Below are positions 20,811 to 40,208 of a stretch of DNA of 64,000 nucleotides, one piece after another; position 1 is the first letter of the stretch; every line of letters starts with the position of its first letter. The DNA is from Sphingomonas carotinifaciens (GTDB lineage: Bacteria > Pseudomonadota > Alphaproteobacteria > Sphingomonadales > Sphingomonadaceae): NCBI RefSeq assembly GCF_009789535.1, contig NZ_WSUT01000005.1, forward strand, positions 124,001 to 188,000. The letters run 5' to 3'. Made by a program: the position numbers and the translations under genes. Below the pieces are notes generated by a model, which had not been told where the DNA came from, did not search any database, and worked only from the letters and a program-made list of their open reading frames with translations.

Positions 20811-20885
20811 GGGCGTGTAGCTCAGTGGTAGAGCACTGTGTTGACATCGCAGGGGTCGCAAGTTCAATCCTTGCCACGCCCACCA
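20811..20885 (+). tRNA. tRNA-Val (GAC anticodon)
   Basis: Complete cloverleaf: acceptor GGGCGTG / CACGCCC, D arm GCTC...GAGC, anticodon arm CTGTG-TTGACAT-CGCAG (anticodon GAC, Val), T arm GCAAG-TTCAATC-CTTGC, encoded 3' ACCA. Its 3' half is the integration site of the downstream island, and integration preserves the gene. Confidence 0.96.
20840..20885 (+). repeat. attL: tRNA-side 46-bp direct repeat
   Basis: The segment from the anticodon loop to the 3' CCA is repeated exactly at 39425-39470. These are the core sites left by site-specific integration. Confidence 0.93.
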
Positions 20886-21078: not shown

Positions 21079-22388
21079 TCACACCCACCGCCGCCGTCCA
21101 TCGGGACCGACTTGCGTGTGTTTTGCGTGGAGCGGCGTCGACATTTTCCGCGCCAGCTCGGAGGCGATGTCCTCCAGCGCCTGCCGGGTCTCGGAGAGAT
21201 AAGCCGGGCTGAAGATCACGTAACGCCGCGTCGACGGGGGCAGCACCACGTGCCCAGCGCCAGCGGGATCTCCTGTTGCGAGACGCCGCGCTGTGCGATC
21301 AGGGTCGCCATGCTGTGGCGCATCAGCTTGGGGCCGAAGCCGACCGGTACACCGAACTGATCCGCCATGACTCTCCACGCCTTCTTGATGTCCGCGACGG
21401 GCCGCTGGACCACCCAACGGTCCTCATCGTCCTCGAACACGCTTTCATGACAGACCAGCCGATCCTCCGTCGCCTCCAGCCAGTTCGCCAGAAGTGATGT
21501 GACGGGGAGCGCCGGTCGGTTTTTGCGCGTCTGGATCCGCCCCGCTGGGTTGAGGTCGAGTACGCCGGCGTCGCGGTGCCATTGCTGCCGGTCGGGCCGC
21601 ACCGAGATATCGTAGAGCGCGTCCGGCCGCGCTAGCGTGCAGATCGCACCGATCAGGTAGCGGCGCAGTGGCATCAGTCGTGCCGGATGCGCCGGGCTGA
21701 GCTCCGGGTCTCCTTCCGCCGTATAGTCGAGCATCTCGGCGATCTGCTCGAGCGAGAGGCGGAAGTTGCGCTCCGGCGTCACGGCGGCGCGGGGCAGGTG
21801 CTTCAGTTCGGGCACCGCCTCCATGCGCTTCACGTTGAACCGCAAGGCTGCCTTCAGCTGGATGATGCTCTCCTCGACCGTCGACTTCGCCCGTTTGCGT
21901 GTCGACACGGTCCATTCGCCGGTCTCCGGGTCACGCCGCCGCTGGGTCACGGGATCGATCTCGGTCCCCCATTTTCGAAAACGCATCAGCCATTCGGCGT
22001 CCAGCACCGTCGGCAGCACGGGTTCACGCAGTACACCGATCGCGATCTCATGGTCGATGAACCGGTTCACCAGTTTCAGCCGGGCGCGGATCGCGTCGGC
22101 GCTGGCCTGCCCGGCGCCGTGCAGCGTCCAATAGTCGGTCATCGCCTGATGGACCGTGTAGGCTACCTTGTCGTCGTCAGCAGGCTGGTGGAACGCCAGA
22201 TAGTGACGGTCGAGCACCTCGACCGCTAGGCGAAGATCAGCCGTGCGCGTGCTGCGCCGCTGCATCCGGCCGGTGACCGGATCGTACCAGCAGATGTAGA
22301 GGTTCGGGCTGACGACCTCGCCGTCCTTGCCACGGACTCGATCGAGGTAGAATTCGCCGCGGCGATAGAGGTCTTCCGGTGACGGCAC
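21079..22388 (-). pseudogene. Tyrosine recombinase/integrase with one-base frameshift
   Basis: Phage-type integrase that would insert the element at tRNA-Val. It starts at GTG 22388 with AAAGGA upstream (MPSPEDLYRRGEFYLDRVRG, then NLYICWYDPVTGRMQRRST). The catalytic core shows ICTLARPDALYD (first Arg region) and GPKLMRHSMATLIAQRGV (RHxxx box). At 21253-21255 a CCC run is one base short: the frame breaks just before the conserved LGH, stopping at 21216, while the next frame continues GHVVLPPSTRRYVIFSPAYL with the nucleophile Tyr, then ETRQALEDIASELARKM, to 21079. Restoring one base gives 436 aa. As read, the enzyme lacks its last His and Tyr and would be inactive. Confidence 0.82.
21108..21129 (+). 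repeat. 22-bp repeat shared with the right end (arm-type site)
   Basis: A 22-bp sequence ending TTTTGCGTG is identical to 39308-39329, in the same orientation. It lies inside the last codons of the integrase gene. It contains two TTGCGTG heptamers. Confidence 0.6.
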
Positions 22389-24252: not shown

Positions 24253-24258
24253 TGTCCA

Positions 24259-26039: not shown

Positions 26040-26162
26040 ACACCTTACCCAGAGAAGGTGACCCCTCCGTTCTGTGATGCACGCGTCGCGGTAACCACAG
26101 GAGGGGAGTGAAGGCTCTGCCTGCGGCGAGGATGGGATCTTCAAAGGAGCAACTATCCTTTG
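26040..26162. promoter_or_regulatory. Cluster of hairpins before the small HTH gene
   Basis: Three inverted repeats in 120 bp: CACCTT...AAGGTG (26040-26059), CCCCTCC (26062-26068) / GGAGGGG (26100-26106) with an inner TGTG/CACA pair, and CAAAGGA (26142-26148) / TCCTTTG (26156-26162), the last touching the GGAGG ribosome-binding site of the next gene. Could be a structured leader or a replication/transfer site. Confidence 0.35.
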
Positions 26163-26171
26163 GAGGAAAAG

Positions 26172-26423
26172 ATGAGACTGAATGCAAAGCAGGTCGACGC
26201 AGACCGCCGCCAAGCCCGTGCGTATGCCGACGACGCGCTTCGAGAGGCTGTTTGCCGCTGGATCGTCGACAACAAGGCCAGCCGCGCCCGAACCGCACGC
26301 GCGTTCGGTATCTCCGTTGAGCGCGTTGGTAACTTTCAGTTCCAGACGCTGATGAAGGAGCAGACGGCGAGATACTGGGCCAAGATGCGGGGCCAGCCCA
26401 TGATCCAGCTGCCAAGGCGCTGA
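26172..26423 (+). CDS. Small HTH-like protein
   Basis: 83 aa, start ATG 26172 with GGAGGA upstream. Basic and helical. ASRARTARAFGISVERVGNF resembles a resolvase-type helix-turn-helix. No family assigned. It precedes the serine recombinase gene by 148 bp on the same strand and may regulate or assist it. Confidence 0.55.
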   Translation: MRLNAKQVDADRRQARAYADDALREAVCRWIVDNKASRARTARAFGISVERVGNFQFQTLMKEQTARYWAKMRGQPMIQLPRR

Positions 26424-26571
26424 GGCTTGCTGCCCGTGCGACGCTGTTCAGAACTTGGAGCTTTTGCACCAGGACTTCGAACAGCGTCGGCTTGGGTGCA
26501 GAAGGTAGGAAGAAGGCAATTGAGCTAGGTTTGGAAGTGCTGGGGTACCTTTCACCCCAGGATGAAAAAGA

Positions 26572-27681
26572 ATGAGTGATATTGCCTACTACCGCGTGTC
26601 GACCGGAGGCCAGACGATCGCGGCGCAACGCGGCGCATTGGCCGGGCCGATGGGCCGTCCCTTCGACAAGGAGTTCGAAGACCAGGGCGTCAGCGGCTCG
26701 GTCCTGGCCCGGAGCCGGCCGGGCTTCTCTGCGATGCTCGGCTATGTCCGTGAGGGCGACAGGCTGCACGTGTCCGCCATCGATCGGCTGGGCCGTGATG
26801 CCCTGGACATCCAGGCGACGGTCCGCGCGCTCATGGACAAGGGCGTCGAGGTCGTGGTGTGCGGGCTCGGTTCGATCACGTCGGGCGCGGGGCTCCTGAT
26901 TCTCGCGGTGCTGGCGCAGATCGCGGAAATGGAGCGCGAGGCCATCCGCGCCCGTACCCGGGCCGGGCTGGACGTCGCGAAACAGTCGCTCGCTGCCACC
27001 GGTCGTACGCACCGGGGCAAGACCAGCCTGGGGCGGCCGCTCAAGGCGGACCCCGCCAGCGTCGCCGCCTGGCGCGTGGCCAACGCGGCGAGCCTGTCCG
27101 CCACCGCCAGCCATTTCGGCATTAGCGCGGCGACTGTGAAGCGCTATCTAGCGCCCACGGTCACGTCCCCGCCAGTCGGTGATGACGGTGGCGAGATCGT
27201 CGCTCGGCATGTCGCTATGGCTGACGACGAGATCGCCGGCGCGGCTGACCACGTCATCGCTGACACTGGCGCCGATGGACTCCACCACGACGTATCGGTC
27301 GGTCCCGGATCCGTGCCGCTGACGATCGACGTCGGCGAGCAGGTCCTCCAGGCGCCTGTACCCACGCCACGCGGTGACGAGGGTGGCGAGCCGTTCGTCG
27401 GCGAGGTCGACCTCCCACTCTTTCCCGACCTTCCGGAGTGGAGACCGGGCGGCGCTCATCAGGGCAGCGCGCAGGTCGGCCAGCAGGCGGTTTCGCTCAG
27501 CGACGCTGTGGTTAAGCCACGGCGACGCATGACGCCGCCGCATCGCATGGGCGACAGCAGGCTCGTCGGCGAAGGCGTTGGCGGCAAACCGCCAGTCGGG
27601 AGCGTGGGTAGCGTCGATGACGAGCCCATGCTCCCCTTCGACGACCCGCAGGGCAGGTTCGGAGAACAGCGCGGCGGCTAG
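26572..27681 (+). CDS. Serine recombinase (resolvase/invertase family) with abnormal C-terminal tail
   Basis: The first about 193 residues form a resolvase: catalytic Ser10 in YYRVSTGGQT, FEDQGVSGSVLARSRPGF, VSAIDRLGRDALDI, LLILAVLAQIAEMEREAIRA and RTRAGLDVAK, and a C-terminal HTH (AASLSATASHFGISAATVKR YL). After that the frame stays open for a further 176 codons, but all of these lie antisense to the 3' end of the relaxase gene (534-bp overlap) and look like shadow translation (Gly/Pro/Asp-rich). The functional protein probably ends near 27150; the natural stop seems to have been lost. ATG 26572 has AGGATG upstream. Confidence 0.78.
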   Translation: MSDIAYYRVSTGGQTIAAQRGALAGPMGRPFDKEFEDQGVSGSVLARSRPGFSAMLGYVREGDRLHVSAIDRLGRDALDIQATVRALMDKGVEVVVCGLGSITSGAGLLILAVLAQIAEMEREAIRARTRAGLDVAKQSLAATGRTHRGKTSLGRPLKADPASVAAWRVANAASLSATASHFGISAATVKRYLAPTVTSPPVGDDGGEIVARHVAMADDEIAGAADHVIADTGADGLHHDVSVGPGSVPLTIDVGEQVLQAPVPTPRGDEGGEPFVGEVDLPLFPDLPEWRPGGAHQGSAQVGQQAVSLSDAVVKPRRRMTPPHRMGDSRLVGEGVGGKPPVGSVGSVDDEPMLPFDDPQGRFGEQRGG

Positions 27682-30084
27682 CGCTGCCACGGCCTCCTCG
27701 CGCTGGGATCGCGCCGCATCCTTCGCCGGTTCCGGCATCGGATGCGGCCGCGCCGGCTCGAGCGGCCTACGCGATTGGATCGGCGGGTTACGGCCCAGCA
27801 GCCCTCCGATCCAATCGCGCCAGCCACGACCGGTTTCCGATGTACCGACGGCGATGACTGGCTCGACAGTCCGCTTCTCTGCCAGGGCGCGCTGATAGAT
27901 GGGATGCTCGCCATAGGCGCGAACATGTTTCAGCGTTCGCGCCGCACTCACATCACCATCTGCGGCGGCGAGTCTCAGGCTGTCCAAGCCTACCGCTGCC
28001 ACGTCTGTTGCTGCGGCGATCATCCGTTTGGCCTGGAGGTCGGCGAAAGCGGCGAGACGCCTCTGCGCCATTTCCATCAGTGCGGGCGTGGTCAGGGCAG
28101 TGAATTCAGCACGAGTTATACCGGGCACCCGATACTCGGTCACTCCCCCCTCCGGCGGCAGGACAGGGACGTCGTCCTTCATGATCCTGTCGAACAGCGC
28201 ATCAAGCGTCGCCCGCGCGTCCAGGCGGGCGGCCTTGGACGCGCGCCGAGGCTCCCGGCGCTCCTTCAGTGCCGTGGCCGCTGACGTGATCTCGTCGATC
28301 GCCGCCTGTGCCTTCGCGACGGCGGTTCGATGCCCAGTCAGGACCGGGGCATGGTCTCGCTCGATCGCAGTGATGCCAGCAAGAAATGCCTCTGCCTCGT
28401 CTGCGCGCGCGACGATCGCTCCTTTCGCTCGCTGCTCCGCCCGGTCCGCCGTCCCGCCCTCGATAGCCTCCAGTATCCGGCGGCATACGGCGATCGTCTT
28501 GTCCGGCCGAGCCCGTGCCATGGTGAGCGTGACGTCATACTCGGCGCATTCGGCATCATGCTGTTGCAGGACCACGTTGGCCGCATCGAACCGGACGATC
28601 AGATCGCGGATGGAGGCCATCCGTGCCTGATCAATGACCGATCCTTCCGCGCAGAGGCGCTCCGCCTCTAGCAGCCGACGCCGAAGGTCCGCCCGGGCTT
28701 TCGCCCGCTCCTCGGCTGCGGTCCACGCCTCGCGTAGCAGCGCGGACCAGAGCATCTCGGCGTTCTCGATGCCGCGGCCGGTCAACACGCCGACCGCGTC
28801 GAGTGGAGCCGCGCGGGTGCCAAGCGGCTTCTGCGCCTGGCGCTCGCAACCCAGCGAGCGGAGATCACCCGGATGGAGCTGGCGAGTAACTCCCAACCGG
28901 TCGAGCTCTTCGTTGCACCGCTCGGCGAAGAAGCGGCGCATGTCGGCGATCGAAGCGGTGCCATAGGCGCGATAATTTCCCCCATCGCTGTCTCGCGACC
29001 ATTCCGCGATCTTCTTCTGCGCGTACGGATAACGCACCCGTTCATGCTGACCCTCAACCGGCTCGGCGATCTCGAAGTCCCATCGGTCCCCCATCCTGCT
29101 GGCCGGTCGGTCATGACAGGCGATGTGCAGATGATGATTGCGGCGGTCATTATGGTGATCGGGCGCATGGATCGCCGCGACGTACATCATGCCGATTTCT
29201 TCCAGTTCTGCGCACATCGCTTCGGTCACCGCCCGCCGACCAGCGGCATCAAGGCCATCTGGAAACTCTGCCGTCAGCCGATACTGCGACCGTCCACCGC
29301 GCGCCTCCGAGAGCCGAACCGGCAGCTTGCCTTTCGTGGTCCCGAGAATGCTGGCCAGCGTCTTCGCCAGCTTGCGTGCGGCAACACGGTCGATCGCCAG
29401 ATCATCGAGCGGGACCGTATGGGGCCTGCGCTTGCCTCTTTCATTCGCGAATTTTGCTGCCACGTCACGCACGGCACAGGGAACGTCCTGTGCATCTGCC
29501 AGTACACGCCACGCCGCACGGGACGCCCTCTCGGGCACCAGGGTCAGCCGGTCCGCGCCTGGTGTGCGTTCATGGCGATGCACGGCACGCCAATAGGCTT
29601 GCCGCTCCTGGGGATCCTGCGAGATATTTGTGAAGACCGCGCGCTCGCCATTGATCGCCTCGGTGGCGGATGGCCGCACGGCATAGCGGTCGAAGCCGTC
29701 CGGAGAGATCGTAACCTCCACCGCTTCCGGCCGATCGATATAGGCATCATGCGCCGCTGGTGCGCCAACCGCCAAGCGCTTGCTTCCCTCCGGCGTCGTG
29801 ATGCGGCACCCGCCGTCGCTTGTCTTGCTGATCGCCTGGAATTCGAAATGGAAGGTGACCTTGCCTCCGGCGGAGACGAAGCGTTCATGAAAAGCACCGG
29901 GCACCGCGAAGTTGGGGGAGCGCAACCAGCGATTGCCACGGACCTTCAGGTCCTTGACCTGGTCACGAACATCCTTACGGACGCGCACCGCGCGACCGAG
30001 CGCTTCTTCCTCTTCGATCGCGAGCGCGAGTCGCAGCCGTGCGGAACAATGACCTATTGGACCGAGGGGACGCTGGATCGACAT
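27148..30084 (-). CDS. MobA/MobL-family relaxase
   Basis: 978-aa conjugative relaxase that would nick oriT and pilot the strand. The three-His metal motif is HAPDHHNDRRNHHLHI (about residues 306-321), as in MobA/MobL (MOBQ-like). The middle is long and helical with coiled-coil character (about 440-640). The C-terminal third is unrelated to known helicase motifs that I can see. ATG 30084 follows CAGGAG; the longer reading starting at 30141 lacks this. The 3' end overlaps the serine recombinase reading. oriT-like DNA lies immediately upstream. Confidence 0.83.
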   Translation of the reverse strand: MSIQRPLGPIGHCSARLRLALAIEEEEALGRAVRVRKDVRDQVKDLKVRGNRWLRSPNFAVPGAFHERFVSAGGKVTFHFEFQAISKTSDGGCRITTPEGSKRLAVGAPAAHDAYIDRPEAVEVTISPDGFDRYAVRPSATEAINGERAVFTNISQDPQERQAYWRAVHRHERTPGADRLTLVPERASRAAWRVLADAQDVPCAVRDVAAKFANERGKRRPHTVPLDDLAIDRVAARKLAKTLASILGTTKGKLPVRLSEARGGRSQYRLTAEFPDGLDAAGRRAVTEAMCAELEEIGMMYVAAIHAPDHHNDRRNHHLHIACHDRPASRMGDRWDFEIAEPVEGQHERVRYPYAQKKIAEWSRDSDGGNYRAYGTASIADMRRFFAERCNEELDRLGVTRQLHPGDLRSLGCERQAQKPLGTRAAPLDAVGVLTGRGIENAEMLWSALLREAWTAAEERAKARADLRRRLLEAERLCAEGSVIDQARMASIRDLIVRFDAANVVLQQHDAECAEYDVTLTMARARPDKTIAVCRRILEAIEGGTADRAEQRAKGAIVARADEAEAFLAGITAIERDHAPVLTGHRTAVAKAQAAIDEITSAATALKERREPRRASKAARLDARATLDALFDRIMKDDVPVLPPEGGVTEYRVPGITRAEFTALTTPALMEMAQRRLAAFADLQAKRMIAAATDVAAVGLDSLRLAAADGDVSAARTLKHVRAYGEHPIYQRALAEKRTVEPVIAVGTSETGRGWRDWIGGLLGRNPPIQSRRPLEPARPHPMPEPAKDAARSQREEAVAALAAALFSEPALRVVEGEHGLVIDATHAPDWRFAANAFADEPAVAHAMRRRHASPWLNHSVAERNRLLADLRAALMSAARSPLRKVGKEWEVDLADERLATLVTAWRGYRRLEDLLADVDRQRHGSGTDRYVVVESIGASVSDDVVSRAGDLVVSHSDMPSDDLATVITDWRGRDRGR

Positions 30085-30129
30085 GGCCGGGCTCCTGTTG
30101 CCGGCATCATGGTACAGGACGCGAATCAC

Positions 30130-30278
30130 GGGGTGAATCACCCCCTCTTATTTTCCCCGAGGGGGCTCAGCCGCCGACGGGCCGCGCCCCAGCGCGCCCT
30201 TGGGGACGCCGACCCCGGCGTCCTGGAACCGCCTCGCCGCATGGCGTTGCACGCAAATGTGAAGGATTCACGTTTGCG
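30130..30278. other. Candidate oriT region upstream of the relaxase
   Basis: A 261-bp gene-free gap (30085-30345) rich in inverted repeats: GGGGTGA-A-TCACCCC (30130-30144), CCCCCTC/GAGGGGG (30141-30165), GGACGCCG-ACCC-CGGCGTCC (30204-30223) directly beside GCGCCCTTGG (30194-30203), and a 12-bp-arm repeat with one mismatch at 30252-30263/30267-30278. The decamer, CCAAGGGCGC on the other strand, matches my recollection of the nick core of MOBQ origins such as pTi and RSF1010 types. Position next to the relaxase supports this. Confidence 0.55.
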
Positions 30279-30345
30279 GAATTGCGCCTCAACAAATCAT
30301 CCTGCTCACTACTCCACCTCGACGGACCAGTCGGGAAGATGCCCG

Positions 30346-31254
30346 CTATTGTTTGAAGCGGTGCTCTCGGTGCCAGCGCACGAATTCCGGGTGCGGCCGG
30401 CTTGCCAGATGTGCGGGCAGGATCGCGCCTCCAGACGGGTTGATGATCGAGCGGACACTGTCTGGATCGTTGACCTGGCGCGACACCAAAATCCGCATGT
30501 CGTCGTCGAAACCGATCAGGCCCCGGTCGAACATCCAGTGCGCCGTGCCCGACAACGCCATGCCGTTGCTGATGATGTCGGGACCGTTCGCCTCAACCGG
30601 CAGAATATGGGCCGCCTCGACCTCGGCGCGTCCGCCACCGTTGATCAGCTTCAGCCCGGTCACCGCACAGCGTTCGTCATACGCGCGCAGAACGATGCGG
30701 CGGAACACCCGGTCCCGCACGACCCGCGAAACCAGTGTCGCGACACGTTCGCGTGCTTCGTCGAAGATGAAGGGCGCGCGCTCCTCCTGCACGGCGGTTG
30801 GCAGGCCGACATCGCCGGTGCGTGGCAGGAGCGGGCTGATGTCGTCAAGTCCGGCGGATACGATCCGACTGAAGTCCGCTGGAGACAGCGATCGTACAGC
30901 CGCCTGGGCGCGACCAGAAATCCTGCCAGCTTCGTTGAGAACGCCACGCTCTATGACTTGGCCATCGGCGTCCGCGAAGGAGACCGGCATAGCGAAATCG
31001 AGATAGCTGCCCGGCTCCACCAGCGCGAGATACATACCGGGTGCCGTCGCGTCCGGCACGATCTGTTCGATCTTGGCAACGGCGAAATAGCCGCGTGTGT
31101 CTCGAATCTTGCGAGGCTCATAATAGATTATCCAGTCACCGAGACATGCCTGGGCCCGGCTCAGATACTGGCCCGGAAACTGGTAACGCTCCGCTGGCGT
31201 GTCGTCGTAGATCGAGTCAAACCTATGGATGAAAACGCCGAACGCCATGAGCAT
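30346..31254 (-). CDS. HNH endonuclease with N-terminal recognition-like domain
   Basis: 302 aa. The C-terminal HNH nuclease has VEAAHILPVEANGPDIISNG then MALSGTAHWMFDRGLIGFD, with His216, Asn230 and His239 as the HNH triad; CAVTG precedes it as in McrA-like enzymes. The N-terminal about 120 residues (DWIIYYEPRKIRDTRGYFAV, AKIEQIVPD) look like a PUA/SRA/EVE-type beta domain that could sense modified DNA, but this is uncertain. The start ATG lies 3 nt after the stop of the small gene, which itself overlaps the reverse transcriptase gene, so the three form one coupled operon. Probable defence nuclease. Confidence 0.75.
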   Translation of the reverse strand: MLMAFGVFIHRFDSIYDDTPAERYQFPGQYLSRAQACLGDWIIYYEPRKIRDTRGYFAVAKIEQIVPDATAPGMYLALVEPGSYLDFAMPVSFADADGQVIERGVLNEAGRISGRAQAAVRSLSPADFSRIVSAGLDDISPLLPRTGDVGLPTAVQEERAPFIFDEARERVATLVSRVVRDRVFRRIVLRAYDERCAVTGLKLINGGGRAEVEAAHILPVEANGPDIISNGMALSGTAHWMFDRGLIGFDDDMRILVSRQVNDPDSVRSIINPSGGAILPAHLASRPHPEFVRWHREHRFKQ

Positions 31255-31257
31255 GGC

Positions 31258-31521
31258 TTAGCGGGGCCGCCGATCCATGCAAATCGGTATCAGCTTTTTG
31301 TCTTCGAGGGTAATTGCAGGAGCGACAATCCAGCCGTTGCCATCATTAAGACCCAAAAAGCTACAATCAGAATCGTTCGGCTGCCTCCAAAATGTAGACC
31401 ATATTTCATCAGACAGGGAGAAGGTAGCGACGCACCCTATTTGGCTCGTTCTCGATAACATTGTTGGCGACTGAAAAGCTGCCATTCGTCCAAACCGCGC
31501 AGCAATTAGTCGGGGATACAC
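31258..31521 (-). CDS. Small protein between reverse transcriptase and HNH nuclease
   Basis: 87 aa from GTG 31521 (overlapping the reverse transcriptase stop by 16 nt), or 75 aa from ATG 31485. The C-terminal half reads like a real folded protein (NDSDCSFLGLNDGNGWIVAP followed by AITLEDKKLIPICMDRRP). No family recognised. Tight spacing on both sides (overlap, then 3 nt) argues it is a true coupled gene, perhaps an accessory or antitoxin-like partner of the cassette. It could also be a remnant. Confidence 0.45.
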   Translation of the reverse strand: MYPRLIAARFGRMAAFQSPTMLSRTSQIGCVATFSLSDEIWSTFWRQPNDSDCSFLGLNDGNGWIVAPAITLEDKKLIPICMDRRPR

Positions 31522-34500
31522 CTACGCGCCGAGGAGATGTTGAAGCCTTCGGGCGCCGGCTTGTAAGCGTCCGTCGCGCGCGACCAGCGCTTCTCGCGAC
31601 TCTGTTGCCGGCGTAGCCGAGTCGGCTCGATCTCCACGACTACCAGTTGGTCATTTAACCCGCCGCGTACCCGGCACACGTCACGCTCGAACGACCTCTT
31701 AGCCGGCCGTCGCAGCCTGCTATCACCGTAGCGACGATTATTAACTAGCGCCATATAGGCATGAACATCGAGCGCAGCGGCATCAATCAAGGCAGAAAAG
31801 CTGTCCAGATCTTTGTTCCATGAAAGTGTGATCAGACAGTCAACTTGGCCTTGAAAACCTGCCCGATACCCCATGTTTTGGAGTTCGCTGCAAACGAGGA
31901 TGCCGAAGTAAAGCCCGTTGTGCTGGTACACCCGCTTGGGGTCAGTTCCTTGGGCCCAGCTCAGACCGTGACTGGCATAAAGCTGCTCCTCCTCTCCTGG
32001 CGCCGGCAGCGACTTGCGTTGCCGTACTTGGATCGAAGACGGGTAGCCCAGCCGATCATCTGTCAAAACGAGTACCGCCGAGCTGTCGATCTGCTTGTCT
32101 GGATGATGCACGTAATTGACTCCAGCTATCAGGCTGATCCCGCTGGCACGCAAACGTCCAGCAATGGTACTAATCCAGCGCTCAGGCACCGATAGTTCGG
32201 GCAGAAGCAGATAATCTGGCTTGGGTGTCGTGAGAATTGCGGTGTTCACGATGCTTGCGAGCTGTCGGTATCGCCGCAGCGACAAGTCGGGGTTTCCCGC
32301 CGCTCCTTCCTCCCAGCTTTTGTCGGTCACCTCGAAGCTGGTCAGTCCCAGCCTTACGGCGCGGCCTAGCGCTGAGTGCTTCACAATGATCGGTAGGGAA
32401 CGATTGTGGCTGTCGGCTGCAATTGCGGGAGCGGGCTTCTTCCCTGCGCCGGTCCCATGTCCGACATCAAACGGTTCCGCGTCCAGCTCTTCCGCTAGAT
32501 CGCCGCGCACCCAAACTCCACGTACCGCGCGCGTGTAATCAGCCCACTTATGGGCAGCGGTGACAGGCTCGTCAAAAACGCACTCGTCGGGCAAGTAGAG
32601 CGCAATCTCCTCGGGGGTGTATGGCCTTGTTGGGAATAAGAACGGCAAAATCGACCGTGGTGCTGGATCGTCCTCCGCCTGAAGCGCAGACAGCGCCACG
32701 CGACGCGGCGGTGGTCCACTGGCATTGCGCTCAGTGCGTTCTAGAAATTGACGAAGGCAGTCGACGTGCTGATAGCGACCTGCCAGCAATGCCTCGTTCG
32801 GCTGCTGGGCTGGCTGCGTCACCGCATCGGTACGGAGGTGCTCACGATAAGGTATCCTGGCCCAGTCTGCCTCACGCGTCCGCCGCGCCAACTGCGTCAG
32901 CTCGTGCATGGTTAGCCCTAAGTCTTTGACCAGAGCTGCGAATGCTCTCGCTCGCGGCGGCGTGGATGAAATAGGATAGGCACGAATCAACGCTTCGCGA
33001 AAGAAGCGTGTGACCTGCTCGCGAGTGTCATTCCAGACTTCCGGTGGCACAGTTCCAGCATAGATCCCATTGATTTTCATCCGTGCCGCCTGAGTGGACT
33101 CCTGCAGCTTGAAGACGGCGGCAATGGTTTCTTTGTACACTCGTCTCGCCGGTGCCCAGTCACCGAGCGACACCGCGAACGACAGCAATCGTGGCAAGTG
33201 ATCGACCTGCTCCAACACCTTGTCGGCGCGGATAACGTGTTCGTGAGAGAACTCGTAAAAGTCTTCGCGTTGCGGTTTCCAATCCTGCGGTTGAAGGTCT
33301 CGCGCCAGTGTGTTTACTGCGCGTAGCAACACCGACCATCCGAGGCGGCGAAGGGTCAATCCGTCTGCCCGCCGCAGACTGTCGGCGTCGTCGGCAGAGT
33401 CGGTTGCGGCCAACGCCCGCGCAGCATGCGACTTGTCGATATGCTCAGGCAGCGGCATCGTCCGCCGCTCGCTGGAAACTTCTCGGATCTGCGAGGCGAT
33501 ATGGTCAAGCAAATCGGCGCCTGATCGTCCGCTTAAGAAGAACGTCTTTTGTTTTGCGGCCTGTAACGTCAGGTGAGTTCTGCCAGCCCATTCGGGCAAC
33601 GCTAGCCTAACGTTTCCGGTCGAATCCCGGTCAAACGCGGAAACCCGCTGCGTGATAAATTTCCAAAGGTCTTTCGGCGACCTAATGTCATCACTATCGT
33701 GGAGCACCAAGAATAGGTCGTCGACATAACGAGCATAGTAAATTGGGGATAGTTGCCGCTCGACCTGTCGATCCAAAAACGCGAGGAGCACATTCGAAAT
33801 CACCCGGACGACCGACAAGCCGATAGGTATACCGGCATGTTCCTCGGTATCGATAGGACAGCCGAGTGCGGACAGCCTCTCACGGCAGCGCACCGACCAC
33901 TCACTCAGCGCGGCGCTTATTAGCTGACTGAACGCCAATTCAAACGGGCTTAGCTCGACACCAAGATATTCTAGAAATCGGGCGTCAACGAAGAAGTTGG
34001 GGTCAATGCTATGATAGAAATTGCCGACGTCAAGCGTCATCGCGATAATCGGCTGCTCCCGCTTTATGGCGTCGCGCATGGCATTGAGGCCATCATCACG
34101 CCACTTGCGGTAAGGCTCGAAATAGGGCTCAAATGAACCCAGAGATTCTAGGTGATAGTCGCCGACCCACTTGCGGTCCTTGTCCGCGCGATAGCGCCGA
34201 ACACGCGAAGCGAGCGCACGATTGGACAGACATGCGTCGAACTTATGGCCGACCAAGTTGACCCACAGTGCCGATAGCACATGGGCCTCGACGCTGAAGT
34301 CGCCGATGAGCCGGAATTCGGGAAGCGGTGTTCGCTGATCCGTGGACCGTCGGAAGGCCCGTTCCGCGTCGGAGAAAAAGGCGTGCGCCGTCGACGCGTC
34401 CGCGTCTGGCATCTCGCTCACATGTTGCTCAAAATGTAGCCGTTTGGGAAAGATGATCGGCTGATTGATGCCCTCGGTTAATATGGTGGCGGCTTCGCCT

Positions 34501-34679
34501 GCCTGCAGTCGTACCAGCAGTGCCGCAAGCTTGTCAGGTAGCGACTGTTCGTAAGCGACGAAAGGTTCAGCTACTCTGATGGATGACTCATAAAAGCAAT
34601 CGACCTTGGCTTTGCGATACGCGAAGAACAGGGCGGAGAGTGACAGGTCGCTCCAATCGACTAAATCTTTATCTGCCAC
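31506..34679 (-). CDS. Defence-type reverse transcriptase fused to nitrilase domain (DRT class 1 / UG1-like)
   Basis: 1057 aa. N-terminal RT: motif A with Asp217 in MTLDVGNFYHSID, the following IPIGLSVVRVISNVLLAFLD, and motif C YARYVDDLFLVL (Asp320, Asp321). A long helical middle (about 430-750) follows. C-terminal carbon-nitrogen hydrolase (nitrilase) domain: Glu828 in LLLPELSVPERW, Lys889 in RQRKSLP and Cys930 in YFGILVCSELQNMG give a complete Glu-Lys-Cys triad. RT-nitrilase fusion is the hallmark of DRT1/UG1 antiphage systems; UG5/UG6 relatives are alternatives. ATG 34679 has a strong GCGGAGG site. Lower GC than neighbours. The first gene of a coupled operon with a small protein and an HNH nuclease. 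Confidence 0.87.
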   Translation of the reverse strand: MADKDLVDWSDLSLSALFFAYRKAKVDCFYESSIRVAEPFVAYEQSLPDKLAALLVRLQAGEAATILTEGINQPIIFPKRLHFEQHVSEMPDADASTAHAFFSDAERAFRRSTDQRTPLPEFRLIGDFSVEAHVLSALWVNLVGHKFDACLSNRALASRVRRYRADKDRKWVGDYHLESLGSFEPYFEPYRKWRDDGLNAMRDAIKREQPIIAMTLDVGNFYHSIDPNFFVDARFLEYLGVELSPFELAFSQLISAALSEWSVRCRERLSALGCPIDTEEHAGIPIGLSVVRVISNVLLAFLDRQVERQLSPIYYARYVDDLFLVLHDSDDIRSPKDLWKFITQRVSAFDRDSTGNVRLALPEWAGRTHLTLQAAKQKTFFLSGRSGADLLDHIASQIREVSSERRTMPLPEHIDKSHAARALAATDSADDADSLRRADGLTLRRLGWSVLLRAVNTLARDLQPQDWKPQREDFYEFSHEHVIRADKVLEQVDHLPRLLSFAVSLGDWAPARRVYKETIAAVFKLQESTQAARMKINGIYAGTVPPEVWNDTREQVTRFFREALIRAYPISSTPPRARAFAALVKDLGLTMHELTQLARRTREADWARIPYREHLRTDAVTQPAQQPNEALLAGRYQHVDCLRQFLERTERNASGPPPRRVALSALQAEDDPAPRSILPFLFPTRPYTPEEIALYLPDECVFDEPVTAAHKWADYTRAVRGVWVRGDLAEELDAEPFDVGHGTGAGKKPAPAIAADSHNRSLPIIVKHSALGRAVRLGLTSFEVTDKSWEEGAAGNPDLSLRRYRQLASIVNTAILTTPKPDYLLLPELSVPERWISTIAGRLRASGISLIAGVNYVHHPDKQIDSSAVLVLTDDRLGYPSSIQVRQRKSLPAPGEEEQLYASHGLSWAQGTDPKRVYQHNGLYFGILVCSELQNMGYRAGFQGQVDCLITLSWNKDLDSFSALIDAAALDVHAYMALVNNRRYGDSRLRRPAKRSFERDVCRVRGGLNDQLVVVEIEPTRLRRQQSREKRWSRATDAYKPAPEGFNISSARRCIPD

Positions 34680-34852
34680 GTTGCCTCCGCTTTAATGACG
34701 ATCACGTTATCGGTGATGGCGTCAATTATCAGGGCTCCACCCTATACGAAGGCGTCGCGGTTGCACAAGTGCTGCGAGGATCACCGCCCTGTTTCCACTT
34801 CAGCACCAGCAGCTCCGAGAGCAGACGGGCTGTTAACGGATCAAGAGCTGCT

Positions 34853-34882
34853 ATCCTAGCAGGAATTTAATTTCCCCGTCAA
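34853..34882 (-). promoter_or_regulatory. Probable promoter of the reverse transcriptase operon
   Basis: On the minus strand TTGACG (34882-34877), an 18-bp spacer, and TAGGAT (34858-34853). It would give a 5' leader of roughly 165 nt before the reverse transcriptase start. The whole gap 34680-34916 shows no gene; the leader is unusually long and could hold an RNA element. Confidence 0.5.
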
Positions 34883-34916
34883 AAAATAGCTTTGACTGTT
34901 TACTACGTGATTAGCC

Positions 34917-36083
34917 TCATGCATCGTCTACGCGAACATCTGGTGTGAAGTTGCCCTTCAGCCGGATAGGCACCACTCGCTGGTCTAAATATCCCTCCGT
35001 CAGTCCCGCTAGTCCTTCGACGTCGCGCAGGTTCAATCCAAGAGCAGCCTCGATCTGTGCACGCGTGTAGACTCCATGCTCAACCAGCATCCGCAGGCCC
35101 TCGGCAAGCATCGTCGGCCTGTTGACCGGGAAAGCGTCGTCGAGCGGCTCGACTTTGCGGATTCGAAGACTGTTCATCTGCCGGAAAAGGTAGGAAAATT
35201 GGTTTTCGGACAGAATTCCAAGATCTCGGCTGCGATATGCCATCGATGCTATCGACACACCCCAGCGTGCCTTCAACGCTTTAAAGTAGGCAATCGAGCT
35301 GCCGAGTACTTCGCGGCTGAAGGTCTCGCGTGGAAGCAGGAACGCGCTAGCAAACCGATTTGCCTGTTTCTCGATCATGTCGAGATTCGAACTGGTGACC
35401 TCTATGTCGGGATGGAGCACCAAGTGACCAAGTTCGTGCGCAAGGTTGAACAAGTCGCGTGGTCCCCCGACGACCTCCTCGGACATTAGGACGATGGGCC
35501 GACCGCCGATCCAGCAGCTAACGGCGTCCATGTCCTGACAGCAGACCGGTTCGCGCACCAACAGAATCCCGTTCGCCTCGATGGTGGCGCCGAGATTGCG
35601 GATGGGGCCACGGCCGAGACCCCAGTGATCGCGAAGCCTCTCGGCAGCACATTCGATGTCGTCTTCGTCGCCGTGCTCGGCATCGAACTCGAAGCCCGGA
35701 AAGTTCACGTCCGGTAAGGCGATGAAGCGTTCGAGTAGGGTGCCGATATCCCCCGCCCATTGCATGCGCCGGACAATTCGACGGCGATGGTGCTGCTCCA
35801 TCCGCTTAAGACTGCGGAAGAACGGCGACCGCGGCTCGCCAGCGCGCGACGGCAGGCTGGTGAAGAACGAGATCGGCTGACCGGTCTCGCCGATGATTCT
35901 ACTCATAGTCTCGCCGCTCGGGGACGCTTGGCCGGTCTCGAACTGAGCGACGGCCTGTCGACTGACGCCAATTGCGTCTGCGAACGCCTCACCGGTGAAC
36001 CCGCGTGCCTCTCGTGCTTCTCTGATCCGTTCCGGAATCGGTTTAGCTCCGGCCGAGGCCGGAGCACCACGATCGTTGCTCAT
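34917..36083 (-). CDS. XRE-family regulator with ImmA/IrrE metallopeptidase domain
   Basis: 388 aa. HTH at about 17-58 (RIREAREARGFTGEAFADAI followed by GVSRQAVAQFETGQ). The ImmA/IrrE (COG2856) domain carries the zinc motif HELGH at residues 216-220 (LFNLAHELGHLVLHPD) and downstream ANRFASAFLLPRETF with the third ligand region. Such proteins cleave or relieve repressors, or act as toxin-antitoxin and stress regulators of mobile elements. It is 14 bp downstream of an unknown partner gene and directly upstream of the reverse transcriptase operon, so it may control the island or the defence genes. Confidence 0.85.
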   Translation of the reverse strand: MSNDRGAPASAGAKPIPERIREAREARGFTGEAFADAIGVSRQAVAQFETGQASPSGETMSRIIGETGQPISFFTSLPSRAGEPRSPFFRSLKRMEQHHRRRIVRRMQWAGDIGTLLERFIALPDVNFPGFEFDAEHGDEDDIECAAERLRDHWGLGRGPIRNLGATIEANGILLVREPVCCQDMDAVSCWIGGRPIVLMSEEVVGGPRDLFNLAHELGHLVLHPDIEVTSSNLDMIEKQANRFASAFLLPRETFSREVLGSSIAYFKALKARWGVSIASMAYRSRDLGILSENQFSYLFRQMNSLRIRKVEPLDDAFPVNRPTMLAEGLRMLVEHGVYTRAQIEAALGLNLRDVEGLAGLTEGYLDQRVVPIRLKGNFTPDVRVDDA

Positions 36084-36097
36084 CCCGCTACCTGTAG

Positions 36098-36766
36098 TCA
36101 GGATTTGATGTTGAGATTGGACTCATGGTCGTTCTTGCGCAACGCTTCCTCGATGTGGTCGCGAAAGCGAAGCACGAGGCCCGATGTTGGCACGTCGACT
36201 GGCACCACCTCAATCGGACCCAAGCGGCTGAGCACGTTTGCCCGTGCAAGCCAGCTGTTCCGCCCGGCCTCGGGCATGCCCCAGCACAAATGAGTGAGGT
36301 CGGAACCATTGGCGCCGAAGGTCAGCCAAGCATACATTTCCTGCGTCAACGCACCGTGGAGCGGCACGACGACAGGATTCCTATCGAACAATTCAAGCTG
36401 ATTGCTGAGTCGCTGATCCTGGCGAGTGGGCGTCTCTTCCGGGAAGGCCACGGGGCCATCCGTCCTGCATACATGGGCGCGGAACTGCCCAGACCGCAGC
36501 TCGACCCAATGCCCACCACCCAGCGGCATCCTCGTCATCTCCGACTCGAATGGCAGGTCGCCAGATTTACAGGCCTCGTGCACGCTGAACAGGACGGCGG
36601 CGCGGCGGATATGCCCCCTGATATCCATGCCGATCAGCGACTTGAGGAATAGTTCGTTTTCCATCACATCGCTGGCCAGTGCGACCGCTTGAGACACCGA
36701 ACGCATCAGCGCTCTGTCGGTGCTGGGCGGAAACGCGTCGTCGAGAAGCTGCTGAAACGGAACCAT
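36098..36766 (-). CDS. Hypothetical partner of the ImmA/IrrE regulator
   Basis: 222 aa from ATG 36766 (MVPFQQLLDDAFPPST). No domain recognised. Features: helical N-terminal half (MRSVSQAVALASDVMENELF), then beta-rich segments (GGHWVELRSGQFRAHVC, VVVPLHGALTQEMYAWLTFG). Adjacent placement upstream of an XRE-ImmA/IrrE gene with a 14-nt gap indicates a two-gene operon. The role could be inhibitor or sensor. Confidence 0.6.
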   Translation of the reverse strand: MVPFQQLLDDAFPPSTDRALMRSVSQAVALASDVMENELFLKSLIGMDIRGHIRRAAVLFSVHEACKSGDLPFESEMTRMPLGGGHWVELRSGQFRAHVCRTDGPVAFPEETPTRQDQRLSNQLELFDRNPVVVPLHGALTQEMYAWLTFGANGSDLTHLCWGMPEAGRNSWLARANVLSRLGPIEVVPVDVPTSGLVLRFRDHIEEALRKNDHESNLNIKS

Positions 36767-36970
36767 GTCTGCCCTTATACCTGATCGCAAGCACATTCCC
36801 GAATCACTGATCTCGGGTCAAGTGATTTCTCGGATTTTAAACCAATCCGGTATCCGTGCGGTCTAGCTTCCTTGTGCCCGCCAGCGAACCGCTGACCTTG
36901 ATGGAGGCGCGGTCGATGCCATTTAGCTCGACGCAGGTTTCCGACGCACCGCCTGGGGCAGATAAGACAA

Positions 36971-37471
36971 TCACGCCACTTCACGAAGGTTAATAAAGTT
37001 TGCGTTCGCCGGTTCGGCAAACTTCGTCCCCATTCGACGCATCAGCCAAGCGTCGGCTCGCTGAACGCCATCGGCCGTATCGTCGGTCGGCTTGCCGTCG
37101 ATGTGAATCAGTTCGCGTGGAGACAAGCGGAAGTGGCCGCGCGATTTCGGCTGCGGCAGGATCACAGCGCGGTTTCCCGCCTTGCTCAGCCAAAGGTTGC
37201 AGTTGGCGTAGACGCGGCAGAAACCGTCGCGTGGCAGGTAGATCGTGATGCCCGTCCGGCCGAATTGACCGTTTGCCGTGGTGCCGAACTCCAGCGCGAC
37301 CATGTCGAGGTTCGATCGCAGCACAGCATGAGCCATCTCCGTCCGACCTTCGAAATCGAGTTCTTTGCCACCAGTGACGACGACGCCGTGTCGCATTTTG
37401 TGCTTGCCGAGCAGAAGCCGGGTCGCTGCGACGGTGTGAGCCTGGAGGATGGCGTCGTCGTCTTGAGTCAT
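36971..37471 (-). CDS. Hypothetical protein (last gene of island operon)
   Basis: 166 aa from ATG 37471 (GTG 37477 is also possible; AAGGAG lies upstream of both). Begins MTQDDDAILQAHTVAATRLL. A mixed alpha/beta protein with GRTGITIYLPRDGFCRVYAN and RGHFRLSPRELIHIDGKPTD. No family recognised. Fourth gene of a same-strand run (39195 to 36971) typical of accessory island genes. The gap 36767-36970 holds no gene. Confidence 0.6.
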   Translation of the reverse strand: MTQDDDAILQAHTVAATRLLLGKHKMRHGVVVTGGKELDFEGRTEMAHAVLRSNLDMVALEFGTTANGQFGRTGITIYLPRDGFCRVYANCNLWLSKAGNRAVILPQPKSRGHFRLSPRELIHIDGKPTDDTADGVQRADAWLMRRMGTKFAEPANANFINLREVA

Positions 37472-37540
37472 GGTCACTTGCTCCTTTTTTCATCTTGAAA
37501 TCCGGGATCGCATTCACCCCCTCCCCATCAAGGCGGGCGG

Positions 37541-37966
37541 TCAGTGACCGACCCGCCACCATTTAATTGTGGGCGCGGCGACAGTGTCGATCGCACTGCG
37601 CAGTTCGCGCAGGTCCTCCAGGCTGCCGCCAAATCGGTCAGCGGGTGCTGCTCCGCCCAACGCATCGAGCGGTAGGTTCATGGCATGGCGGATCGCGCGG
37701 CTGTCGTGATTGAGGCGCCATTCCAGGCGTATGAGAATGTTGATGAACAGCCGCAGTCGCTCTGCGCGAACAACACCTACGGGCGACCACAGTCGACCGA
37801 GATGGATCATATCCTCCGCCTCAGCCCTGTCGATGCTGAGCAGGCGCATGGCGTGGTCCGAATCGATATCGTGGGTCAGCATGATCCGGCCGGCAAGATC
37901 GACCAGCGCGGCGTGGGCTTCGTCCTGCAAGCCGGTCACCTGAAGCTCGCCAGGTGGTCGGCCCAC
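37541..37966 (-). CDS. Hypothetical protein, weakly MbcA/ParS/Xre-antitoxin-like
   Basis: 141 aa from GTG 37966, overlapping the upstream gene by 31 nt. Helical; the stretch MNLPLDALGGAAPADRFGGS and LEDLRELRSAID loosely recalls the C-terminal domain of Xre/MbcA/ParS antitoxins (LGG.tP...), but no RES toxin is adjacent, so this is only a hint. The end is TIKWWRVGH. Confidence 0.55.
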   Translation of the reverse strand: MGRPPGELQVTGLQDEAHAALVDLAGRIMLTHDIDSDHAMRLLSIDRAEAEDMIHLGRLWSPVGVVRAERLRLFINILIRLEWRLNHDSRAIRHAMNLPLDALGGAAPADRFGGSLEDLRELRSAIDTVAAPTIKWWRVGH

Positions 37967-38577
37967 ATCGCCTCGATGATCGCCTGTCCGCGATCATGGA
38001 TCATATCCTCGTCATACAGGCCCTGCCGGATGCCGAGGCCTGTAACGCGCCTTGGAACGATCAGGGCGTGCGCATGCAGCGGGAAGGCCGCGTTGATCGT
38101 CCCCGGCGCATGCAGGATCAGGACCGATGCGAGATCGCGGTCGCGAGCGAACCGTTCGCGCAGGAAGGCGCGTGCGCGTTCCCAGCCGATATGCACCCGG
38201 TCGACGTCGCCCAGCGGCAGCGTCAGGTAGGTGAGCAACGCCTTCTCGCGCTCGACGGCATGCGCGTCCATTTGACCCAGGAGGGTTGCCGGATCGGCAA
38301 GTCCATCGTCGGCTCCCGCGGGGAGAAGCACCTCGATCCGCTCGACATTCGGCGACCAGACAGTGGTGTCTGCACTCGCGTTGGCGGGACCGAGATGCGC
38401 CTTGCGATAGCCGAACTCCAGCGCACTATTGATCCGACCGGCATAGGCACGGCGCAGGACGGCGAAGACGGTGCCCGACGGAGAAGGCCCGGCTGGGTTG
38501 AGGTAGAGCCAGCTCTGCGGATCGACGTCGGTGGGCGTCGGCTTGCTTGGCAGCTTGCGGGGCTTGCGCGTAGCCAT
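37936..38577 (-). CDS. Hypothetical island protein with HAHALIV motif
   Basis: 213 aa. Basic Pro-rich start (MATRKPRKLPSKPTPTDVDP). Near the C-terminus AAFPLHAHALIVPRRVTG has an HxH pair on a predicted strand, a little like relaxase or HIT-type catalytic sites, but the remaining His ligands are not evident. Lies 1 bp downstream of the first gene of the run and overlaps the next. Not recognised beyond that. Confidence 0.6.
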   Translation of the reverse strand: MATRKPRKLPSKPTPTDVDPQSWLYLNPAGPSPSGTVFAVLRRAYAGRINSALEFGYRKAHLGPANASADTTVWSPNVERIEVLLPAGADDGLADPATLLGQMDAHAVEREKALLTYLTLPLGDVDRVHIGWERARAFLRERFARDRDLASVLILHAPGTINAAFPLHAHALIVPRRVTGLGIRQGLYDEDMIHDRGQAIIEAMWADHLASFR

Positions 38578-38578
38578 G

Positions 38579-39195
38579 TCAGCGGCCTCGCCGGCCGGTC
38601 ACGATGCAGACGATCTCGCCCGCCGCACGACAGACCCCGTCGCAACGCTCATCCCAAGTGACGAATGGCGGTGCCGTGTGTAGCGCCAGCCCTTTGCTAC
38701 TGATCTCGACGAACGCGCCAGCCTGGCCTGGCACCAGCCACAGGCCGCCGTCGCATTTCCGCATGAAGGTGAGGCCCTTCATCGTGAACGGCCCGTCGGG
38801 CCCGACCAGTGCGATGTCGACCGTGACGGGGTTCATGGTTTCCGGAAACAGCCCGGTCCGTACCAGCATGACGTCACGTTTGAAGCGGGCGCAGGCTGCC
38901 TCCACATTCGCGTCGAACAGCGGCGCGTCGCACGGCGTCGCTGCCATCAGGAGATTGGCCGAGGCGATGTCCAGTGCTCCGGCAGGCAGGCCGGCCAACG
39001 CGCCGATCGGCAGGGGTGCCTCGTTAATGGCGGCGAGGGGCAGCGACAGGACACGCAACGAGGGATCGAGCGACGGCTCGATCGGGGACGTCAACATCTT
39101 GGGTACTTTCGGCGAGAGGATCACCGGCCCGTCGCGGGTCCGGATCAGGCCGCCTGACTTTTTCCTTTGGTCAGCAGCTTCGCTGCACCCCTCAT
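38579..39195 (-). pseudogene. Hypothetical protein, first gene of operon, apparent one-base frameshift
   Basis: The frame ending at 38579 is open from 39259 but lacks a good start; internal ATG 39097 (MLTSPIEPSLDPSLRV) has no ribosome-binding site. In the next frame ATG 39195 opens MRGAAKLLTKGKS and stops after 16 codons. The frames join at a five-T run (39159-39163): one extra base gives MRGAAKLLTKGKKSGGLIRT followed by RDGPVILSPKVPKMLTSP, a continuous 205-aa protein. So the gene is either truncated at its start or the run is miscounted. Two late Cys-rich bits (RKCDGG, DERCDGVCRA). No family recognised. Confidence 0.55.
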
Positions 39196-39307
39196 TTGCC
39201 CTATATCCTTGACCGCGCTGCTGGCAGCTCGGGCCACATTCACCAACGAGGTCCAGCATCGGGCGAGTGCATAAGTTACTGATTTAGGAAGATACTGGCT
39301 CAAAATT

Positions 39308-39329
39308 CGACTTGCGTGTGTTTTGCGTG
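39308..39329 (+). repeat. Right-end copy of the 22-bp arm-type repeat
   Basis: Identical to 21108-21129, same orientation, 95 bp inside attR. The gap 39196-39424 has no gene and probably holds the integrase-binding arm of attR. Confidence 0.6.
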
Positions 39330-39424
39330 AAAAGAACCGTCATTCACGGCCTGTTCTCGTCTCGTTCTCTTGCATTCGCACGTTCGAACGAAGTAAAATC
39401 AATGACTTAGGTCATCCCATCTTC

Positions 39425-39470
39425 GTTGACATCGCAGGGGTCGCAAGTTCAATCCTTGCCACGCCCACCA
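39425..39470 (+). repeat. attR: 46-bp duplicate of the tRNA-Val 3' half
   Basis: Exact copy of 20840-20885, from the anticodon loop to CCA. It lacks the 5' half of the tRNA, so it is not a functional gene. It marks the right end of the island. Confidence 0.93.
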
Positions 39471-39474
39471 CTTC

Positions 39475-39512
39475 AAAAAGCCTCGGATGTCTTCGGACTT
39501 CCGGGGCTTTTT
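39475..39512 (+). terminator. Terminator beyond attR (original tRNA-Val terminator)
   Basis: 13-bp stem AAAAAGCCTCGGA / TCCGGGGCTTTTT with one T-G pair and a 12-nt loop. It lies as close to attR as a tRNA terminator should. Confidence 0.8.
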
Positions 39513-39608
39513 AGCACCTGATCGGACACTGGTTCCAAGATTTCGGTCATCGGCCAAGCAATGCCGGTGCCACGCGGAAGCGATGCATTTGACAAAGCCA
39601 GCCGTCGC

Positions 39609-40208
39609 TTACCCCCTGGAACAGGCACTGTGCTCGACCACCTGGACGCTCATGCTCGCAGCAAGAAAGCGACGCGCGTCGTTCATCACGACATTTATCC
39701 ACTCGGCACACCAAGCCGGAGCGTAATCGTCTTCATCGCGCGCTTCCGGGCCGAACAGTTTTTCCAACTTCCAAAGCAGTGCGGGGCAATCTGGCGCAGG
39801 CGTCTGGATCAGACCATTCTCGATCGCGCACTGAACGTCACAGAGTCGATCGCTCTCCAAACCGGCGGCGTCAGCGCCCAATCGCTCACTATCACGTCGA
39901 TACGCCAGCCAAGCGTCCCTGACCTCTGCCGCTTTTCGCCGGAAAACCGGAGACCAATGATCATCCCAAGCGTGCAAATTCGTTGGATCGACACGATACT
40001 GAGTGATCTGACCATTCAGCGCCTCGATCTCGAAGCAGAGATCCGGGCGTGGAGATATGCGTTCGATTTCCTCATATATGGGATCATAAATTGCAGAATT
40101 ATAGTGCTCGAGGGCCTGCTTTGCCGCTTCCTGCTCGGCAAGGGCCTTATACCACAAATCCCGAGCAGAAGTCGACGCCGCGATATTCACCGACACATGC
40201 ATGTTCAT
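39609..40208 (-). CDS. Hypothetical protein between attR and tRNA-Pro
   Basis: 199 aa from ATG 40208 (MNMHVSVNIAASTSARDLWY). Helical, with Trp/Asp-rich segments (LHAWDDHWSPVFRRKAAEVR, DYAPAWCAEWINVVMNDARR). No family known to me. It sits in a tRNA-flanked spot that often takes up mobile DNA, so it may be an older insertion remnant. The gap 40209-40494 shows nothing else. Confidence 0.55.
   Translation of the reverse strand: MNMHVSVNIAASTSARDLWYKALAEQEAAKQALEHYNSAIYDPIYEEIERISPRPDLCFEIEALNGQITQYRVDPTNLHAWDDHWSPVFRRKAAEVRDAWLAYRRDSERLGADAAGLESDRLCDVQCAIENGLIQTPAPDCPALLWKLEKLFGPEARDEDDYAPAWCAEWINVVMNDARRFLAASMSVQVVEHSACSRG

Follow-up and report, generated by a model that had tools for sequence, protein, structure and literature searches.

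We analyzed a 64,000-nucleotide (nt) stretch of the Sphingomonas carotinifaciens genome (contig NZ_WSUT01000005.1, positions 124,001 to 188,000; hereafter the window), which carries on its minus strand a gene for a reverse transcriptase (RT) fused to a nitrilase. The gene very probably encodes an antiviral suicide system belonging to the already known UG5 family, and we put at roughly three in four the probability that its product is a single-protein UG5-nitrilase antiphage system, in which template-free DNA primed from Ser403 gates a lidded nitrilase until infection releases it. Specifically, the RT would synthesize DNA without a template, starting from one of the protein's own serines, which is most likely Ser403, immediately past the thumb; the attached DNA would assemble the C-terminal nitrilase and gate it, and the protein's own C-terminal tail (K1040-x-x-P1043) would close the nitrilase active site (E828, K889, E896, and C930); and phage infection would release the nitrilase to hydrolyze an essential carbon-nitrogen compound, so that the cell would be stopped or killed before phage mature. 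We infer this whole sequence of events for the window protein, including the priming role of Ser403, the trigger, and the substrate. Our own analysis contributes constrained catalytic residues, UG5 membership, a serine at the spacing commonest in the related family DRT1 (defense-associated RT type 1), a shared lid, and a defense-like island. Protein priming and the dependence on nitrilase and lid (both from DRT1), as well as covalent template-free synthesis (from DRT5S and DRT5L), come from the work of others (PMC13275509; this and the other papers are cited here from excerpts of their text).

In those excerpts, DRT1 synthesizes DNA without a template from its own S402 and needs the RT, the nitrilase (C1116), and S402 for defense. 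The DRT1 adducts assemble filaments. The active site of the nitrilase is covered by a lid, the domain-swapped C-terminal tail, and K1219A and A1223F reduce defense to the level of tail deletions. Purified "DRT5S" and "DRT5L" likewise make covalent DNA without a template (PMC13275509).

Integrity and conservation of the RT-nitrilase gene

The gene and its parts are as follows.

31506..34679, minus strand: UG5-nitrilase reverse transcriptase gene, 1057 amino acids (aa), GTG start (PADLOC PDLC03780)
34684..34688, minus strand: GGAGG, probable ribosome-binding site four bases upstream of the GTG (from the sequence)
33450..34352, minus strand: RT core and thumb, residues ~110-410, limits approximate (alignment, RT tree, AlphaFold2)
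33717-33728, minus strand: YVDD, residues 318-321, within the RT core, whose motif A residue is D217
33471..33473, minus strand: Ser403, proposed protein-priming residue (invariance and spacing from K376)
31539..32372, minus strand: nitrilase domain, residues 770-1047, with E828, K889, E896, and C930 (alignment, AlphaFold2, fold searches)
31542..31562, minus strand: C-terminal lid motif K1040-x-x-P1043-x-x-F1046 (KxxPxx[FY] in 76/76 sequences; K1219-F1225 in the DRT1 structure 9YFD)

Homologues were drawn from a genome scan (at least 79 loci), a viral scan (the best 4 of 80 kept matches, L113-L116, were used), two plasmid records, and a search of the host order. Of the 89 loci examined (L002, L003, L005, L006, and L032-L116), 75 passed a full-length filter and 14 were dropped, which together with the window protein gave 76 sequences forming 36 single-linkage clusters at 60% identity. 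A second alignment, A3, also holds 76 sequences, with L036 in and L100 out. As the original prediction had proposed, the open reading frame (ORF) is intact and contains motif A Asp217 and the YVDD aspartates Asp320 and Asp321, and the fused C-terminal nitrilase-fold domain retains Glu828, Lys889, and Cys930. Glu896 is retained as well. All seven catalytic residues are identical across 76/76 sequences.

The gene is under purifying selection: compared with the closest homologue among the matches listed (86% identical, from Sphingomonas hankookensis, L035), the ratio of nonsynonymous to synonymous substitution rates was 0.113 across the gene, 0.091 within residues 1-410, and 0.093 within residues 771-1057, and the low values in both parts indicate that both enzymes are maintained. 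A protein search of the own genome returned the window copy as the sole match at E ≤ 0.001, and 5 of 396 genomes of the host order (own included) matched at E ≤ 1e-200, with 49 having any match at 0.001. Ten plasmid records matched the window protein (five of them full-length), and none of the phage records did. Searches of the window protein against Pfam and NCBIfam gave nothing above cut-off, with RVT_1 below it and CN_hydrolase absent. Thus, the expected sequence match to the Pfam nitrilase family failed to appear, and it was fold search and PADLOC that revealed the domain. 9YFD was not among the 50 matches listed in either fold search, but these lists were filled by nitrilase matches, so its absence says nothing about the RT part.

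Assignment to the UG5 family

The window gene is a UG5-family RT-nitrilase and not a member of UG1, which we take to be DRT1. The PADLOC RT_UG5-nitrilase profile (PDLC03780) matched residues 5-1056, i.e., end to end (E = 2.9e-271, 900.9 bits), compared with only 78.8 bits for Drt1a, whose best stretch (817-1032) lies in the nitrilase; a Drt1a search of the own genome gave no match at E ≤ 1e-20. In a FastTree phylogeny of 59 RT cores (a UG5 sample, 8 DRT1s, and further RTs encoded at the retrieved loci), the UG5 family was monophyletic (23 tips, 0.859) with the window protein inside, as was its own group within the family, UG5L (21 tips, 0.946), and DRT1 formed a separate clade (8 tips, 0.998) without the window protein. 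The initial label of DRT class 1 (UG1-like) is therefore refuted as a clade assignment by profile match and tree, and it is scarcely credible that this is a DRT1 gene after all, despite the identical RT-nitrilase order, a nitrilase that aligns to Drt1a and to 9YFD (C930 on C1116), and the sister position of the UG5 and DRT1 RT groups (0.993). The window protein is also shorter (1057 aa versus 1225-1296 aa for the 8 DRT1s).

The fusion itself had been regarded as the hallmark of DRT1. However, the UG5 RT-nitrilase tested by Rousset 2022 is noted in the excerpts of that paper as belonging to a different clade from type-I DRT (PMC9122126), so the fusion is not diagnostic, and the excerpts of PMC13275509 assign nitrilase DRTs to class 3 rather than class 1. 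"UG1-like" is thus wrong as a label, but the sister family DRT1 is still the right place to seek the mechanism. The expectation that the RT core is neither a group II intron RT (16.2 bits against a cut-off of 300) nor a retron RT (26.2 against 235) was borne out, both candidates falling far under their cut-offs.

Ser403 as a candidate priming residue

A3 contains 33 invariant positions, and Ser403 is the sole one between K376 and R803. The spacing from K376 to Ser403 is 27 residues in 76/76 sequences, L115 among them, and the UG5-small protein L116 also has a serine at +27 from its motif Lys. Among the 152 serine, threonine, and tyrosine residues of the window protein, only Ser403 and Tyr315 are fully invariant, and Tyr315 adjoins YVDD. 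We compared the Lys-to-Ser spacing with that of 8 DRT1s and 2 proteins of the UG5-small lineage. When the motif Lys is aligned to K376, the DRT1 priming serine lies at a spacing of 27 in 5/8 proteins, 25 in one, and 29 in two (L206 and L207), the last two sharing the insertion of the solved protein. As a positive control, nothing but the known priming serine proved invariant in the stretch from the motif Lys to L446 of the 8 DRT1s. A further DRT1 search returned 1 of 369 genomes, already among these eight; the search for relatives of UG5-small yielded only the contig of L116 itself in the viral scan and 5 partial matches in plasmids.

A pattern check of 12 of the 14 dropped loci found the serine at +27 in 11 and no match in L089, the two loci outside this check being L116 (counted separately) and L107 (nitrilase part only). 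Among 95 control RTs, 84 had a recognizable motif Lys (11 were dropped), with a serine at +27 in 2, at +29 in 4, and at +25 in 35, which makes the +25 spacing uninformative. The argument from invariance and spacing is post hoc, i.e., it was found after looking and not predicted beforehand. We lean, by a modest degree, toward a priming serine ancestral to UG5 and DRT1, with Ser403 as the nucleophile carrying the DNA and one adduct-gated nitrilase mechanism. Ser403 would then have been overlooked because the studied DRT1 has a 2-residue insertion before its serine, which breaks ordinary alignments.

A shared C-terminal lid motif

The 9YFD tail reads K1219-T-Q-P-A-G-F1225 and that of the window protein K1040-P-A-P1043-E-G-F1046, with K1040 and P1043 invariant in A3. 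KxxPxx[FY] occurs within the last 45 residues of 76/76 UG5L proteins versus 2.8% in shuffles, and in 6/8 DRT1s, the remaining two of which keep K and P but not F/Y. The motif is also found in L116, L008, L115 (itself counted among the 76), and L011, a DRT1-like fragment, but not in L007 (KSLPPGA). In comparison, it is present in 0/30 ordinary CN_hydrolases of the host and 15 relatives (30 from 32 loci, L253 and L267 being left out as cut by contig ends), although many of these are orthologues and thus represent fewer than 30 independent cases. K1040-x-x-P1043 thus matches the essential DRT1 lid (Lys1219).

Other gene arrangements were seen as well. In L041, two overlapping ORFs make up the UG5-nitrilase, the break falling at the boundary between RT and nitrilase (residues 815/820) through natural fission or a frameshift. 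L238, L239, and L240 encode a ~1070-aa RT with FVDD that overlaps a separate ~300-aa nitrilase with a KSLPPG tail, and an additional gene overlaps the 5′ end of the FVDD RT.

Alternative explanations

Several observations weigh against the proposed mechanism. Two aligners shift the DRT1 serine 2-3 positions from Ser403, two others fail in this region, and only the Lys-anchored count registers both serines: hhalign (local) sets it opposite R406, L-INS-i is ~2 columns off, and G-INS-i and E-INS-i open a 22-column gap beside it. Since all four misregister the serines, we rejected residue-exact alignment homology, and the argument for Ser403 is one of invariance plus spacing, with 3/8 DRT1s showing a spacing other than 27. 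The excerpts of PMC13275509 state that class 3 DRTs other than DRT1 do not conserve S402 and that the DRT1 structure is unresolved in the priming-serine region. "UG5" is absent from this excerpted text, and it is from the names that we infer DRT5S and DRT5L to be the small and large UG5 proteins. The PMC literature searched yielded no experiment on the window protein or a close relative. AlphaFold2 places Ser403 near the end of a confident helix (384-406), and the surrounding E404, R406, and P409 are conserved, which fits a structural role too. Ser403 may therefore be structural, with priming through another residue or an RNA or tRNA primer and the remaining mechanism unchanged, an alternative that we rate as possible but clearly less likely than a priming serine. 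It would account for the conserved S-E-x-R-x-x-P motif at the helix end, and protein-primed RTs other than DRT1 use other residues for priming. It would leave unexplained why only Ser403 and Tyr315 are invariant among so many candidate residues and why the commonest DRT1 spacing is identical.

The remaining alternatives concern components other than the RT-nitrilase. It is unlikely, in our judgment, that defense works through a partner (a one-transmembrane [1TM] protein or a neighboring gene) with the RT-nitrilase only as sensor. The validated UG5-nitrilase does have a 1TM partner (PMC9122126), and none is evident in the window, in which the minus-strand ORFs of ≥80 aa beside the RT gene contain no TM-like stretch. 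A small gene lies just downstream in at least 3 of 72 neighborhoods (71 loci plus the window; only clusters of ≥3 loci were considered, so counts are lower bounds), and its L114 copy matches Drt1b|RTasTM. A hydropathy scan of another set of 72 loci, all with sufficient sequence downstream and not including the window, flagged 4, of which the L002 hit is probably spurious. Most loci thus lack a TM partner by these scans, the invariant nitrilase tetrad implies catalysis, and in the excerpts of PMC13275509, most DRT1 operons lack drt1b and the tested DRT1 defends without it. A retron-like or DRT2/9-like system with an undetected noncoding RNA is far less probable still. The 237-nt gap upstream of the gene could hold such an RNA, and short stretches before the start are common to the window, L035, and L052 in a 4-locus upstream alignment. 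However, the shared stretches are short and have mostly disappeared in L034 (62% identical), Rfam matched only two tRNAs in 20800-40600, and class 3 DRTs made DNA without added RNA template in the presence of RNase A (PMC13275509). As a separate observation, a minus-strand ORF of 39 codons (31290-31409), just downstream of the RT gene, encodes a single strongly hydrophobic segment; at this length it cannot be called a TM partner.

The mobile island and its neighbors

The RT-nitrilase gene lies in an island with the following features.

20811..20885, plus strand: tRNA-Val(GAC), insertion site (tRNA calling, Rfam)
20840..20885, plus strand: attL (left attachment site), 46-bp repeat (repeat search)
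39425..39470, plus strand: attR (right attachment site), 46-bp repeat identical to attL (repeat search)
21216..22388, minus strand: integrase-like ORF next to tRNA-Val, lacking its C-terminal part in frame (reading of translation)
27148..30141, minus strand: MobA/MobL-type relaxase (Pfam MobA_MobL 5.4e-7)
30346..31254, minus strand: HNH endonuclease, possible modification-dependent restriction enzyme (Pfam HNH_2 7.3e-10)
34917..36083, minus strand: RmrA-like helix-turn-helix and M78 peptidase protein, RosmerTA antitoxin-like (PADLOC RmrA E=1.7e-104)
36098..36796, minus strand: RmrT-like protein, RosmerTA toxin-like (PADLOC RmrT E=1.1e-19)

A perfect 46-bp repeat of the tRNA-Val 3′ end, a mark of site-specific integration, bounds 20840-39470. 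Besides the RT gene, the island contains the integrase-like ORF, HipA, an AAA ATPase, the relaxase, the HNH nuclease, and, directly upstream of the RT gene in the same orientation, the RosmerTA-like pair (we take RmrA and RmrT to be the RosmerTA components). The repeat and this pair support the part of the earlier view that places an intact antiphage RT-nitrilase of the DRT group within a mobile island. The GC content of the RT-nitrilase region is 57.7%, compared with 67.4% to the left and 66.6% to the right of the island. The integrase-like ORF matched nothing in Pfam (E ≤ 0.001) or PHROGs (E ≤ 0.01). Because its C-terminal end is missing, the island may have lost the ability to move on its own. 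The HNH protein adjoining the RT gene scored 102.8 bits against NF045808, below the cut-off of 180; its C-terminal part resembles the phosphorothioate-dependent restriction enzymes of that model.

The tRNA-Val with a matching left neighbor is present in all four fetched relatives (L230-L233). Beyond attR, L232 aligns over 42 bp, L231 and L233 over 12 bp, and L230 not at all, and in genome G695, the right flank (tRNA-Pro, yajC) lies ~61 kb from tRNA-Val, so these relatives do not clearly display an empty site. A relative (L224, in genome G730) of the ORF just outside attR (39561-40214) has both a HipA gene and another copy of the tRNA-Val repeat nearby, which suggests nested or successive islands at tRNA-Val. 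DNA similarity to L035 is confined to 31446-34839, and the gene therefore seems, from this one pair, to move independently of its present neighbors.

Across the 72 neighborhoods, BREX-type genes occur in at least 13 and type I restriction-modification genes in at least 8, which supports a defense role. The confirmed cluster representatives are one each of PglZ, BrxL, BrxC, BrxB, and MTase_I and two type I restriction subunits. A further cluster is presumably PglX-like, judging by its position, and L078 is counted solely through that cluster. In 8 of the 72 neighborhoods (L063, L065, L074, L082, L083, L087, L105, and L112), the UG5-nitrilase gene lies between the N-terminal and C-terminal halves of a PglX-like BREX protein (~1-570 and ~600-1160 of the 1160-aa reference L095), sometimes with further genes inserted and often with the genes touching or overlapping (starts uncertain). 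The UG5 proteins of these loci are 45-96% identical, so few events may underlie the arrangement; a literature search for "split PglX" with BREX found nothing.

Implications and comparison with known systems

The interest of this analysis lies in two single-residue predictions rather than in the gene being surprising: one serine and one lysine are predicted to mark how DNA synthesis starts and how the effector is closed in the least understood class of defense RTs. If true, they would unify UG5 and DRT1, correct the published statement on serine conservation, and make RT-nitrilase defense one adduct-gated nitrilase mechanism across families. The UG5 RT-nitrilase kind is already known, with an antiphage role reported for another member, and the window gene is a new sequence member. 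UG1 and UG5 are both described as fused to nitrilase in the excerpts of PMC8934634, and UG5 is placed in an RT tree in those of PMC4244168; the PMC literature searched contained no work naming the UG5L clade of the window protein.

The window protein resembles the PADLOC RT_UG5-nitrilase family in domain order, catalytic residues, C-terminal lid, and full-length match. The DRT5 of Gao 2020 is said to be another family, and this, not UG5, may be the DRT5 called mechanistically open in the excerpts of two overviews (PMC13213688 and PMC13314766). The system of Rousset 2022, which comes from P4-like satellites and for which phage resistance was shown with UG5 RT-nitrilase plus 1TM partner in room-temperature assays (PMC9122126), shares with the window protein a UG5 RT with a C-terminal nitrilase and differs in that partner. 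L115 is probably this system or a near copy, since it matches PDLC02995 (958 positions) end to end (2253.8 bits) and is followed by a TM-like gene. Its identity to the window protein is 21%, and in the tree L115 belongs with UG5-small and not in the clade of the window protein. Like the window protein, DRT1/UG1 (9YFD, PMC13275509) combines RT and nitrilase with a catalytic Cys, a KxxPxGF lid, and an invariant serine in the post-thumb linker, but it forms a separate RT clade and is a longer protein of low overall similarity. Finally, UG5-small L116 (PADLOC RT_UG5_small) shares the RT family and the serine at +27 and carries its tail (KPTPPLF) on a separate nitrilase, using two genes where the window has one.

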